Source: Bacteroidota bacterium
GTDB taxonomy: Bacteria > Bacteroidota > Bacteroidia > Flavobacteriales_D > Sanyastnellaceae
DNA length: 64,000 nt
Reading direction: 5' to 3'
Assembly (NCBI GenBank): GCA_002746975.1
Contig: NVXE01000006.1
Coordinates: 121,110-185,109, forward strand
A model generated the notes under the pieces. That model was not told the origin of the DNA and made no database searches. It saw nothing but the letters and a program-made list of their open reading frames with translations. Both the position numbers and the translations under genes were made by a program. This document shows positions 98 to 4,452 of this stretch, one piece after another (positions within the stretch are counted from its first letter, which is position 1; every line of letters starts with the position of its first letter).

Positions 98-940
98 TTA
101 CAACTGTAAAATGTTTTTTTGGTGCCAAGCCAGGTATTTTAAGTCCGGTTTTTGAGATAGCTTATGAGGCAAATTTGCAGACTGCCCATCATATGCCCAA
201 ACCAGAGATTTCGATGCTATTCCATTAACTCTTTCGCTAATTAACAGCTCCATATTCTCATTAAACCCTATCGCTCCCCTATCGAATAGCTTATGGTGGA
301 TTAAACAAAGCGCAATACCATTACTTATTTCACATGGGCCATCCGCAGCATGAGGCTTTATGTGTGCGGCCTCTACGCCCACTGTCACATCTCCTACCCT
401 AATATCGTTTCCACAAATTGCACATGCCCTATCATAAGCATCTAGAACTTCATGCCTGAATTTAGGGTCTCGCTTAGACCTAACAAATTGTCTAGAAACT
501 TGTGACAATTGAACATCGACTAAAATGTCATCGATTAAAGTTTCAGGAAATTGGCTTATCAACGCACCCACTATTTCATCAAACAGCTTATCATTCTTAG
601 ATAATGCATCTGCAAAAGATTCTTCTAAATATCCTATAGGGTTAACTCTATCCAAGTCACTCTTTTTAGCATCACCTGAAATACCTATAAAGCCTTCTAC
701 AACCCAAAGTTCATCATTTTGCAATCTAATAAATGGATATAAAGGCCTAGGGTTAAGTCCCGACTTCCCTCCATACTTCCTCAACAGTTGAGATAATTTA
801 TCGTTAACCTCACTCCATCTAAGTTCCTTATTTTGTCTTAAAGCTCCAAGAGCAAGGAGAAGTAAAAGTGGCTTATGAGGCGCATAATCGTCACCCCTTC
901 TCCATGATTTTATTTTTGAAATTTTCTCTAACCAATCCAT
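98..940 (-). CDS. Phosphorothioation-dependent McrA-like restriction endonuclease (SBD-HNH)
   Basis: This is probably a type IV restriction enzyme that recognises sulfur-modified (phosphorothioate) DNA and cuts it, acting against foreign or Dnd-modified DNA in the cytoplasm. The N-terminal half has the hallmarks of the sulfur-binding domain of the ScoMcrA family: PHKPLLLLLALG at residues 21-32 and LYPFIRLQND at 67-76, including the Tyr-Pro pair known to contact the sulfur pocket. The C-terminal half is an HNH nuclease with Cys173-x2-Cys176, AAHIKPH around His193 and LCLIHH with Cys212 and His215/216, giving a zinc-stabilised beta-beta-alpha fold. At 280 aa it matches the compact members of the family. 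No dnd or ssp modification genes are in view, so it looks solitary. It lies in the accessory patch beside decayed genes. The family call rests on motif recognition, and the DNA target is inferred. Confidence 0.85.
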   Translation of the reverse strand: MDWLEKISKIKSWRRGDDYAPHKPLLLLLALGALRQNKELRWSEVNDKLSQLLRKYGGKSGLNPRPLYPFIRLQNDELWVVEGFIGISGDAKKSDLDRVNPIGYLEESFADALSKNDKLFDEIVGALISQFPETLIDDILVDVQLSQVSRQFVRSKRDPKFRHEVLDAYDRACAICGNDIRVGDVTVGVEAAHIKPHAADGPCEISNGIALCLIHHKLFDRGAIGFNENMELLISERVNGIASKSLVWAYDGQSANLPHKLSQKPDLKYLAWHQKNILQL

Positions 941-1131: not shown

Positions 1132-1323
1132 ATGGAAACTTATAAGTGTAGTAAATGTGGAATGTCTGTTAATGCATCTTGTGGCAATTGTAACGCCCCA
1201 TTAGTAAATGATGTACTCAAGTTAGATGATGGTCGAGAGGTACAGGTCTCGAAATGCCCAAATGGACATGGGAAAATAAAATCTCCTCTATGTTGTGGAG
1301 AAGATATGAGTTGTTCAGTTTAG
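1132..1323 (+). CDS. Small zinc-ribbon protein
   Basis: This is a 63-residue protein with many cysteines: a CSKCG knuckle near the N-terminus, CGNCNAP around residues 17-23, and further Cys/His positions (KCPNGHG, LCCGEDMSC) towards the C-terminus. The layout suggests one or two small treble-clef or rubredoxin-like zinc sites. Such proteins bind zinc and often act as small regulators or chaperone-like accessory factors, but nothing in the sequence fixes a function. It starts at ATG 1132 and has a good upstream promoter. It is followed closely by a decayed Fic gene, so it may be a survivor of the same accessory module. I do not recognise a named family with certainty. Confidence 0.6.
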   Translation: METYKCSKCGMSVNASCGNCNAPLVNDVLKLDDGREVQVSKCPNGHGKIKSPLCCGEDMSCSV

Positions 1324-1433
1324 GATTTAGATAAGATTAGTCGGAAACATACTGAAATTAGAGTTAATACTAATTGTCGCTAAAATCATACATTTTGGTT
1401 ATTAGTGATTCAATTAACGTGTGTAATCGGCTC

Positions 1434-2177
1434 ATGAAATATAATTGGGAACAAAGTGATTGGAGAAAATTCACATACGACGAAGATAAAAATGAGGAGT
1501 ATTACAATGTTTTCTCAGAAAAGTTAGGCATTGCAAAAGGAGGTTTGTCCTTTTTAGATGAAAAGCAACATTCAGACACATTAGTTGACATATTAGTTTC
1601 GGAGGCGATAAAAACATCAGAAATTTAGGGAGAGTTTTTGAGCAGAAAAAATGTGATTTCCTCAATAAAGATAAATATAGGTATGCCCTCTAACAGTTAT
1701 GTCGTTAGAGATGTAAGGGCTATAGGAATAGCTGAGATGATGTCAGTTGTTCATATGGATTATGAGTCATTACTGACAGGAAACATGTTGTTTCTGGAAG
1801 ACTGGGGAGAGAAGTTGTTCATTTTGTGGCTCCTACCCCCTCCTCAGTCCCAAAGGAAATGAGTTTATTTATTAAATGGTTTAATGAAACAGCACCAGGT
1901 GGAAAGAAAGTTCTCTGCTTTACGGTCTGCTATCGCTCATCTTTATTTTGAGAGTATTCATCCTTTTGAAGATGGGAATGGGAGAATTGGAAGATCTATA
2001 GCTGAAAAGGCTTTATTACAAACTGTTGGGCATCCATTGCTATTAAGTTTATCTGTCTCTATTGAAAAGATAAAGCCAAATATTACGAATCACTTAGAGT
2101 TAGAGTGGGCAGTAAGAGTAATGAGATTACAGAATGTGTACGTCTTCATAACTGTTGGACAAATTGCTTACGCCTAA
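1434..2177 (+). pseudogene. Decayed Fic-family protein with N-terminal DUF4172
   Basis: Fic proteins transfer AMP or related groups onto target proteins. The remnant begins MKYNWEQSDW at ATG 1434, the typical start of the DUF4172 domain that precedes Fic. It retains the catalytic motif HPFEDGNGRIGR, encoded at 1959-1994. The gene is broken at least three times. An in-frame TAG at 1626-1628 interrupts SEAIKTSEI and GEFLSRKN, where homologues read a Glu. Between about 1780 and 1795 a block of roughly 25 codons is missing and the frame changes, since SGRLGREVVHF and FIKWFNETAPGG continue in another frame. A second frame change near 1905-1915 leads into SALRSAIAHLYFESIHPFEDGNG. The C-terminus after about 2110 no longer resembles Fic. 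The mutations are scattered, so this is a true pseudogene and not one sequencing error. It lies in the accessory region. Confidence 0.85.
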
Positions 2178-2184
2178 TTTAGGC
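2172..2184. repeat. Short perfect palindrome GCCTAATTTAGGC
   Basis: This 13-bp perfect inverted repeat (6-bp arms, one central base) lies at the end of the decayed Fic reading frame and about 95 bp before the next gene. It could be an operator half-pair for a lost regulator or a scar of rearrangement. Both readings are inference, and no second copy was noticed in the window. Confidence 0.3.
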
Positions 2185-2277
2185 ATATAAATCGTCAGCG
2201 AAAGTTGGACAAAAATTACTAACACATGAAAAGGTGTTTCCTATTTATCGTAAATTAGAAATATTATTTTGCTAGCC

Positions 2278-3170: not shown

Positions 3171-3830
3171 ATGAGATTTTTTTTCCTTGATGTTGAGACA
3201 GCCAATCCTGACCAATCCTCGATATGTCAAATCGGTATAGCTTTATCTGAAAATGGGTAAATGGTAAAGAGTTAGAATTGGCTAATAAATCCAGAAGATT
3301 ATTTTGACCATTTCAATGTAGCGGTTCATGGGATTACAGAATCCGATGTTGTTAATGAAAGTCTTTTTAGTGAGGTCTATAAGGAATTGTCATCATTAGT
3401 CACAAACCAAATAGTAGTTCATCATACAGCATTTGACAAAGTTGCGATTAATGCTGTTTGTAAGAAATATAAACTAAAGCCACCTAACCTGACTTGGATT
3501 GATTCAGTTAGAGTGGTTAGACGAGTGTATCCTGTGTTTATATCAAGAGGGTATGGGTTAAAGAATTTAACTAACCATTTTGGAATTAAGTTTAAACATC
3601 ACGATGCCGAAGGAGATGCTATTGCAACACATAAGATTGTCAATCATTGTTTAGTCGATTCTAAGACTGAAATTGAGCATTGGAGGGAAAATCAATTCAG
3701 GAGCACCCAATCAACAAAAACTGTTGGAGGAGGAGTTATTGGATTTATAGATTCGAAAGTAGATTCGAATGGTAATCTTTTTGGGGAGACATCAATATCC
3801 TCTTTGGTGGAGCCGGGGGGAGTACTTTGA
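3171..3830 (+). pseudogene. Decayed DEDDh 3'-5' exonuclease (DNA pol III epsilon-like)
   Basis: The reading frame from ATG 3171 starts MRFFFLDVETANPD, the Exo I motif of DnaQ-like exonucleases. It later shows the Exo II region (HHTAFDKVAINAV) and the Exo III motif HHDAEGDAIAT, so all catalytic blocks were once present. Two in-frame stops interrupt it after ENG: TAA at 3258-3260 and TAG at 3273-3275. Flanking residues on both sides align with intact family members (..GNWLINPEDYF..HGIT). The part after the second stop stays open to 3830, but no good start precedes the lost Exo I motif, so an active enzyme is unlikely. The last ten codons (SSLVEPGGVL) are not exonuclease sequence; they are the 17-bp copy of the tmRNA 3' end, so the gene end was created or altered by integration. 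Confidence 0.8.
3807..3823. repeat. Attachment-site repeat, distal copy of tmRNA 3' end
   Basis: GTGGAGCCGGGGGGAGT is identical to 4052-4068, the 3' end of the tmRNA gene, 245 bp away in direct orientation. Here the flank reads TGGTGGAGCC, which on the minus strand gives GGCTCCACCA, i.e. acceptor end plus an encoded CCA. This copy thus looks like the original tmRNA terminus displaced by an insertion (attR), while the copy joined to tmRNA lacks CCA. Confidence 0.75.
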
Positions 3831-3940
3831 AATACTCAAATAAAACCCGAACAAAAACTCGCGGATACTAAACATCAAGAATAACCGCAACTAAATCGCC
3901 GACGGTTCTCCCCCCTTTCACTCAGAGGGAACTACGCTCG

Positions 3941-4048
3941 AGCGCTATGCGCTTAGCAATACTGCGAGCACATAGTCATCAAACAAGTTTGTGACTAGTA
4001 CTCGAGCATATTGCTGAACGACTTCGTCGTTCTCGAGCTAGTAGTCAC
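3941..4048. repeat. Hairpin-rich non-coding segment between att copies
   Basis: No gene is visible in this stretch. It holds nested inverted repeats: AGCGC-TAT-GCGCT at 3941-3953; AGTCATCAAAC-AA-GTTTGTGACT at 3974-3996 (one bulged T); and a large imperfect stem pairing 3991-4006 with 4032-4048. The large stem encloses the perfect hairpin GAACGAC-TTC-GTCGTTC at 4016-4032. Together they could form a cruciform or a structured RNA. The segment is bounded by the tmRNA-end direct repeats, so a small mobile or REP-like element is the likeliest reading. Confidence 0.6.
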
Positions 4049-4051
4049 TTC

Positions 4052-4068
4052 GTGGAGCCGGGGGGAGT
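4052..4068. repeat. Attachment-site repeat, tmRNA-proximal copy
   Basis: This is the second copy of the 17-bp repeat; it forms the 3' acceptor and T-arm side of the tmRNA gene. Next to the discriminator base (4053) the minus strand reads CGA instead of CCA, as expected if an integrated element supplied a substitute 3' end. Confidence 0.75.
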
Positions 4069-4452
4069 CGAACCCCCGTCCAAACAAGGGAGAACTGGGA
4101 TTTCTACATGTTTATTCCGTGATTATTTTTCGACTTGAGGATGGCCATGGACAGCCCACCTAAAGCTTAGTTCATTAGAGTTTCGCGCTAGGAGAAGAAC
4201 GCTCCCTTAACTAGTCCCATTTGCCTGATACCCCATAGATGCCGCGGAAGGGTCCGTACGTTGCATCGGGATAGCTCGTTCAACTATCTAATAGAAGAAT
4301 AAGGCATAATCAACTGAGTTGACTAGGCTGCGAGCGCGTAGGAAGTGTTGTCATTTCTGACTATTGAATTTCGAGATTAACGAGTTGAAAAACAAAGAAC
4401 TCGACATGCTTACACAATTAACCATCTTGCTGTCAAATCCAAGATCGGCCCC
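4053..4452 (-). ncRNA. ssrA: Transfer-messenger RNA (tmRNA)
   Basis: tmRNA rescues stalled ribosomes and tags the nascent chain for proteolysis, working with SmpB. The 5' end GGGGCCG (from 4452) pairs over 7 bp with CGGCUCC at the 3' end (discriminator A at 4053), forming the alanine-type acceptor stem. The T-arm GGACGGGGGUUCGACUCCCCC is directly inside it. The tag frame follows the conserved UAGUC context: resume codon AGA at 4358-4356, then codons for RNDNTSYALAA and stop TAG at 4325-4323. The tag ends in the expected YALAA degron. CCA is not encoded (CGA instead), so the CCA end would have to be added by the nucleotidyltransferase. The 3' end is the target of the integration described next to it. 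The length of 400 nt is normal. Confidence 0.95.

Follow-up and report, generated by a model that had tools for sequence, protein, structure and literature searches.

The 228 bp that follow the tmRNA gene (ssrA) in the window, by which we mean the whole 64,000-nucleotide stretch of Bacteroidota DNA analyzed here, are probably a copy of a small mobile element, non-coding and strongly structured, whose insertions fall precisely at tRNA and tmRNA 3′ ends, a reading to which we give a probability of roughly 0.75 on the strength of sequence comparison. The putatively inserted segment (3824 to 4051, minus strand) is bounded by two 17-nt copies of the ssrA 3′ end and is missing in the related genome G009, whose ssrA end meets the same far flank. 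It contains no genes and no recombinase. The same three-arm architecture was seen behind Ala, Arg, Leu, and other tRNA genes of the window's genome (G000), and the family of such units, which has no name yet, sits almost only at tRNA and tmRNA 3′ ends in this marine genus.

The tmRNA gene itself is intact (4050 to 4452, minus strand; Rfam RF00023, 139.7 bits, E = 1.2e-54). Its terminal sequence from A58 of the T-loop to C74, GTGGAGCCGGGGGGAGT, is found within the working gene at 4052 to 4068 and again at 3807 to 3823, both on the minus strand, with a spacing of 245; the pair is exact over 17 nt, stretching it to 20 nt brings in one mismatch, and the far copy is preceded by AGTA, the right-end signature of the family. 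The 17-bp direct repeat named in the original prediction is therefore real, and its 16-mer core has no further site in the 2.39-Mb, 14-contig genome even with two mismatches allowed. Among approximately 80 distinct tmRNA loci from the family and order, 13 have their own ssrA end partly copied downstream on the same strand, 91 to 3284 bp off, compared with none in a reversed-sequence control on these loci, which argues that the doubled end is not due to chance. In two more species of the genus, a second copy lies at a near-equal distance (231 nt in G001 and 230 nt in G004, where the contig stops inside that copy). Several contigs of other species (G041, G082, G084, G085, G106, G054, G100, and G109) stop at the 3′ end of ssrA or no more than ~105 bp from it, which is what a repeated or population-variable end would be expected to produce.

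The two copies differ in the bases that follow them: the gene-side copy reads GGCTCCAC and then GA, and the far copy reads GGCTCCAC and then CA. These letters were read correctly in the original prediction, but the conclusion drawn from them, that CCA marks the original gene end and CGA a new end supplied by the element, does not hold. The ssrA genes of about 40 relatives terminate in GGCTCCAC or near variants, and the next bases differ (GA, TA, TT, AT, CA, or CG), so CCA is not the ancestral encoded end here. Instead, CA starts the older flank, as it also does in G009, and GA starts the insert.

The unit begins immediately 3′ of ssrA C74 and is co-oriented with the gene. The 228-bp segment folds far better than its shuffled versions, both as RNA (z = -5.5) and as DNA (z = -4.5), and its three-arm structured core, supported by covariance models R2 and R3 (described below) and by the fold (z = -5.5), occupies 3933 to 4042 on the minus strand. 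This core consists, on the same strand, of a closing stem (about 3932 to 3942 pairing with 4032 to 4044), a first hairpin with a GAA loop (4017 to 4031), a long, two-part second hairpin (3955 to 4015), and a third hairpin (3941 to 3953). In addition, a G-rich strand, GGGGGGAG (3908 to 3915, minus strand), which is kept in G004, is complementary to CTCCCCCC of both ssrA-end copies. The sequences between the ssrA-end copies in G001 and G004 are of near-equal length and have little similarity to that of the window, and all three fold into one architecture of closing stem, short hairpin, long two-part hairpin, and short hairpin. Shared length and fold with little shared sequence suggest that some of the ssrA units of G000, G001, and G004 may be old and vertically inherited. 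Two other origins were considered and rejected: (i) a dispersed repeat, as the segment and its core are single-copy in the genome, and (ii) a phage, as the lone viral contig match was a glycine-rich protein gene. No Rfam family other than tRNA and tmRNA attains its curated cut-off at the units.

To place the window unit in a family, covariance models were built from four units (R1), seven units (R2), and 28 units (R3); the window unit was in none of the training sets, that of R3 being made up solely of tRNA-gene units and the ssrA unit of another species. Although R1 missed the window unit, R2 scored it at 25.9 bits (E = 0.0084 in 442 kb) and R3 at 41.8 bits (E = 4.5e-6 in 455 kb), these E-values being rough owing to a shortened calibration. 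There was no second model match in the window or in the adjoining 60 kb. Across the 14 genomes of the genus, R2 gave 30 matches. Of these, 28 follow a tRNA gene and start no more than 55 bp past its end, and one lies directly behind the ssrA of G001; most of the relative genomes are fragmented metagenome bins. The last match (G005:C17) shares 95% identity with the tRNA-Arg-ACG unit of G011, and on another contig a serine recombinase abuts the tRNA-Arg-ACG gene of G005; therefore, judging across contigs, this unit appears to have been displaced from its tRNA gene by an island. Beside it (G005:C17:28000-34883) lie a reverse transcriptase, a small accessory protein, and a variable-protein-like open reading frame, which together look like a diversity-generating retroelement. 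Outside the genus, the regions behind ssrA in other families score weakly (locus L018, E = 0.00015, opposite strand; locus L014, E = 0.019), and a CACTGCACGGG motif is common to such tails and is not dispersed. Scanning with a plain hairpin descriptor proved too permissive.

In an alignment of 28 units (A5), 91.9% of cells are paired, compensatory cells number 301 versus 98 ± 8 expected, covariation is 0.813 versus 0.187, and pairing falls to 36 to 42% when the structure is slid by one column, although the alignment was fitted to the structure, which favors the pairing figures. The closing stem lies outside the model and thus offers an independent check; it reaches 9.7 bp, versus 5.8 ± 0.3 with swapped partners. 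A conserved RNA-like structure of this kind might instead belong to a functional tail of tRNA and tmRNA transcripts, spread through tandem duplication and gene conversion and not through transposition, as may have happened with the tyrT repeats (rttR) of Escherichia coli, where tyrV-tyrT shows the same arrangement. Terminator-like first hairpins, tandem partial copies at tRNA-Leu-TAA and in other families, and an excess of G-U over A-C pairs (42 versus 13) are in keeping with such a tail. However, the G-U excess is partly inherent in the alignment method, and insertion is indicated both by species that differ through precise presence or absence at tRNA-Leu-TAA and by two loci of one genome that are closer to each other than units are between species. 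We therefore regard the transcript tail as an improbable explanation.

Comparison of filled and empty sites shows what, from the sequences, would be precise insertion at tRNA and tmRNA ends. The tRNA-Leu-TAA site is empty in G006, G004, and G011, where GGGTAC runs directly into ATAACGGGAG, and filled in G001 and G007, where a ~270-bp unit and a copied end are followed by the same flank, A(A/T)AACGGGAG; G000 has tandem partial copies at this gene. For ssrA, the empty site is in G009, where the gene meets CAAAGAGGATAT, the 12 nt beyond the far copy in the window. G009:C89:17512-17540 corresponds to window positions 3795 to 3823 over 29 identical nt, of which only 12 nt lie past the 17-nt end. 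The original prediction had suggested looking in relatives for an unbroken ssrA end that continues into the sequence left of 3807, and G009 has one.

The far copies themselves indicate where they come from. In the window's genome, several units end in a copy of the last 15 to 17 nt of their own tRNA, with no mismatches at Arg-CCT, Arg-CCG, and Leu-TAA and two at Leu-GAG. Ala and Met units have a degenerate far copy, and none was detected in the Pro, Gln, and Val units. RGTA precedes the far copy in most units. For the 32 tRNAs of this genome, neither the opposite strand nor the upstream side yielded an own-end copy. The ends of other tRNAs turned up 12 times in 948 comparisons, and part of these hits may be genuine tRNA genes nearby. 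The Arg-CCT and Arg-CCG units of G000 share 93% identity with each other, compared with 68 to 80% between each of them and the same-tRNA units of other species, and still their far copies differ, each matching its own tRNA gene. Near-identical units with own-gene far copies imply that the copy comes from the target. This would not be expected from a fixed attachment site, whereas it is expected from target duplication and also from gene conversion of the unit interior; the likeness of these two units could also stem from gene conversion of one tRNA-Arg locus by the other.

The ssrA gene is also a genuine hotspot for serine-recombinase islands in the genus. In G009, a large serine recombinase gene on the opposite strand runs into the ssrA end, so that an integrase in relatives, as originally anticipated, is indeed present. 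In the window, positions 3795 to 3806 (plus strand) are the remnant of an older island end of this type, which reads ISSLVE, as does the C-terminus of the G009 recombinase, and which is identified by that match and by the 29-nt identity to G009. These last recombinase codons are fused to a truncated, frameshifted exonuclease-like gene (3171 to 3794, plus strand; 73% nucleotide identity to G006:C8:3401-3960) that is cut short by the remnant; in the G006 relative, the frame goes on beyond the stop of the window copy. Both the G009 recombinase and the codons left in the window mark ssrA as an island hotspot and indicate that the 228 bp arrived separately. Older island cargo includes a broken Fic-family gene (1335 to 2177, plus strand), an intact relative of which adjoins ssrA in G005, and a restriction-type HNH endonuclease gene (98 to 940, minus strand; PF13391, E = 3.6e-11, and PADLOC HNH models). 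The accessory genes on the far side, which had been thought to fit the integration at the repeat, belong to an older decaying island that is separate from the 228-bp insertion.

Several further observations concern these islands and the accessory region. Large serine recombinase genes enter the 3′ ends of tRNA-Arg-ACG, tRNA-Leu-CAA, and tRNA-Arg-CCG in G005 (L270, L271, and L272) and of ssrA in G009 (L070), and they form a recombinase family aimed at tRNA and tmRNA ends in the genus. Downstream of ssrA in G011 (C32), there is a gene array with the larger genes co-oriented and a ~40-bp repeat between them (TTATCGGATTTCCCGCCCCGCTTCTCCA); this genome also has, at 9.7 kb from ssrA, a sequence related to the window segment. 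The array repeats were considered as integron-like cassettes, which was rejected: one repeat matches the C-terminal end of a serine recombinase (SSLVEKRG), so the repeats look like island ends and not attC sites. The accessory region also holds a 155-bp repeat with 90% identity (window 1147 to 1301 and G000:C3:116885-117040, ~5 kb away) and, past the window, a HipA-like gene pair (L041, 16383 to 17646). Window positions 2134 to 2222 belong to a repeat that is dispersed; it carries GTTGGACAAA and CGTCAGCGAAAGTTGGAC motifs and recurs on contigs C4 and C9 of G000 as well as in G004, G005, and G011.

Given such a hotspot, the two ssrA-end copies might be the attL and attR of an ssrA-targeted serine- or tyrosine-recombinase island whose interior has been deleted down to 228 bp. 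The recombinase abutting ssrA in G009 would fit this, as would the different content downstream of ssrA in every species, the cassette-like 9.7-kb array that parts ssrA from the relative of the window segment in G011, and the ~9.7 kb that G000 has in excess of G008. In Dehalococcoides ssrA islands, the duplication likewise begins in the ssrA T-loop, and the gene for the serine recombinase DsiB overlaps the ssrA end on the opposite strand (PMC3146451), an arrangement also seen in G009 and G005. However, those islands carry genes, and no integrase with cargo lies between the window repeats, the only recombinase sequence being the 12-nt end remnant outside the far copy. The window insert is free of genes and of any recombinase, contains the three-arm unit common to tRNA loci, and has relatives behind many tRNAs; the ssrA copies of G001 and G004 are of equal length, and far copies fit their own tRNA despite two near-identical inserts. 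A deleted island thus seems very unlikely. Integration into ssrA, as originally proposed, is supported by an insertion footprint, although no integrase-bearing island provided a new 3′ end and the insert is the 228 bp itself.

Under the preferred reading of a mobile element, the element would enter directly after C74 in the orientation of the gene. Its far end is followed by a second version of the ~17 nt (A58 to C74) with which the gene in front terminates, so that gene stays intact. Staggered cutting at the 3′ end of the gene, or some step of like effect, would double 16 to 17 nt of the target; insertion would be carried out by an enzyme acting in trans and not encoded in the element, and the fold may be recognized by that enzyme or by an RNA-level host process. 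One point against this reading is the length of the target duplication, as 17 nt would be uncommon for a transposase. The likeliest order of events in the window would be that (i) ssrA was first invaded by an older serine-recombinase island, which decayed, and (ii) the element then landed between ssrA and the island remnant. This is the simplest reading, although an island that entered the far copy would leave the same junction.

Among known systems, the closest arrangement to our knowledge is that of the 178-bp tyrT repeats (rttR) of E. coli, which we have not seen recognized as mobile. In strain K-12 (NC_000913), the tRNA-Tyr end occurs three times in tyrV-tyrT, spaced 178 bp apart; every copy starts from A58 and has GAGTA in front of it, comparable to the RGTA end of the three-arm units. 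Both are non-coding units behind a tRNA gene with a terminal copy of their own tRNA, and both have tandem copies and small GNA-loop hairpins. However, the E. coli repeats are known at one tRNA locus, in contrast to three-arm units behind many tRNAs, their copy extends through the encoded CCA, and the tyrT locus scored only 10.7 bits with R3, so the secondary structure is not shared. A search of the open-access literature on tRNA-tail repeats returned no matching precedent.

Two other types of mobile DNA share some of these features. Casposons (Cas1 transposons) likewise use tRNA 3′ ends as insertion sites and duplicate 14 to 15 bp of target while sparing the gene (PMC6977970, PMC4046053), but their duplication covers only the last 4 to 7 nt of the tRNA, compared with 17 nt inside the gene here, and they have terminal inverted repeats and Cas1 and PolB genes, none of which was seen in the window insert. 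REP/BIME palindromes are short, non-coding, structured repeats thought to be mobilized in trans by RAYTs (PMC2817692). The window insert is likewise short, non-coding, and structured, with mobilization in trans proposed, whereas REP/BIME palindromes are high-copy and dispersed over intergenic regions. We know of no REP/BIME palindromes with tRNA-end targeting or a 17-nt duplication. A tentative and rather doubtful extension is that the three-arm units might be one branch of a widespread, so far unrecognized class of structured, gene-free elements, with the tyrT repeats of E. coli and the tails behind ssrA in other families as further branches. Such a class would move only between tRNA and tmRNA 3′ ends, duplicating the stretch from A58 to the end, by means of some putative enzyme.

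Phages and islands that bring an integrase with them classically land at tRNA and tmRNA 3′ ends. A structured element that has no genes, settles at many different tRNA ends, and copies the terminal 17 nt of its target would represent a strategy different from that of such integrase carriers. If this is true, it would account for short duplications of tRNA ends that have been hard to explain, among them the tyrT repeats known for decades, and short duplications of this kind should not automatically be taken as island boundaries. It also raises the testable question of which enzyme recognizes the three-arm fold at tRNA ends.
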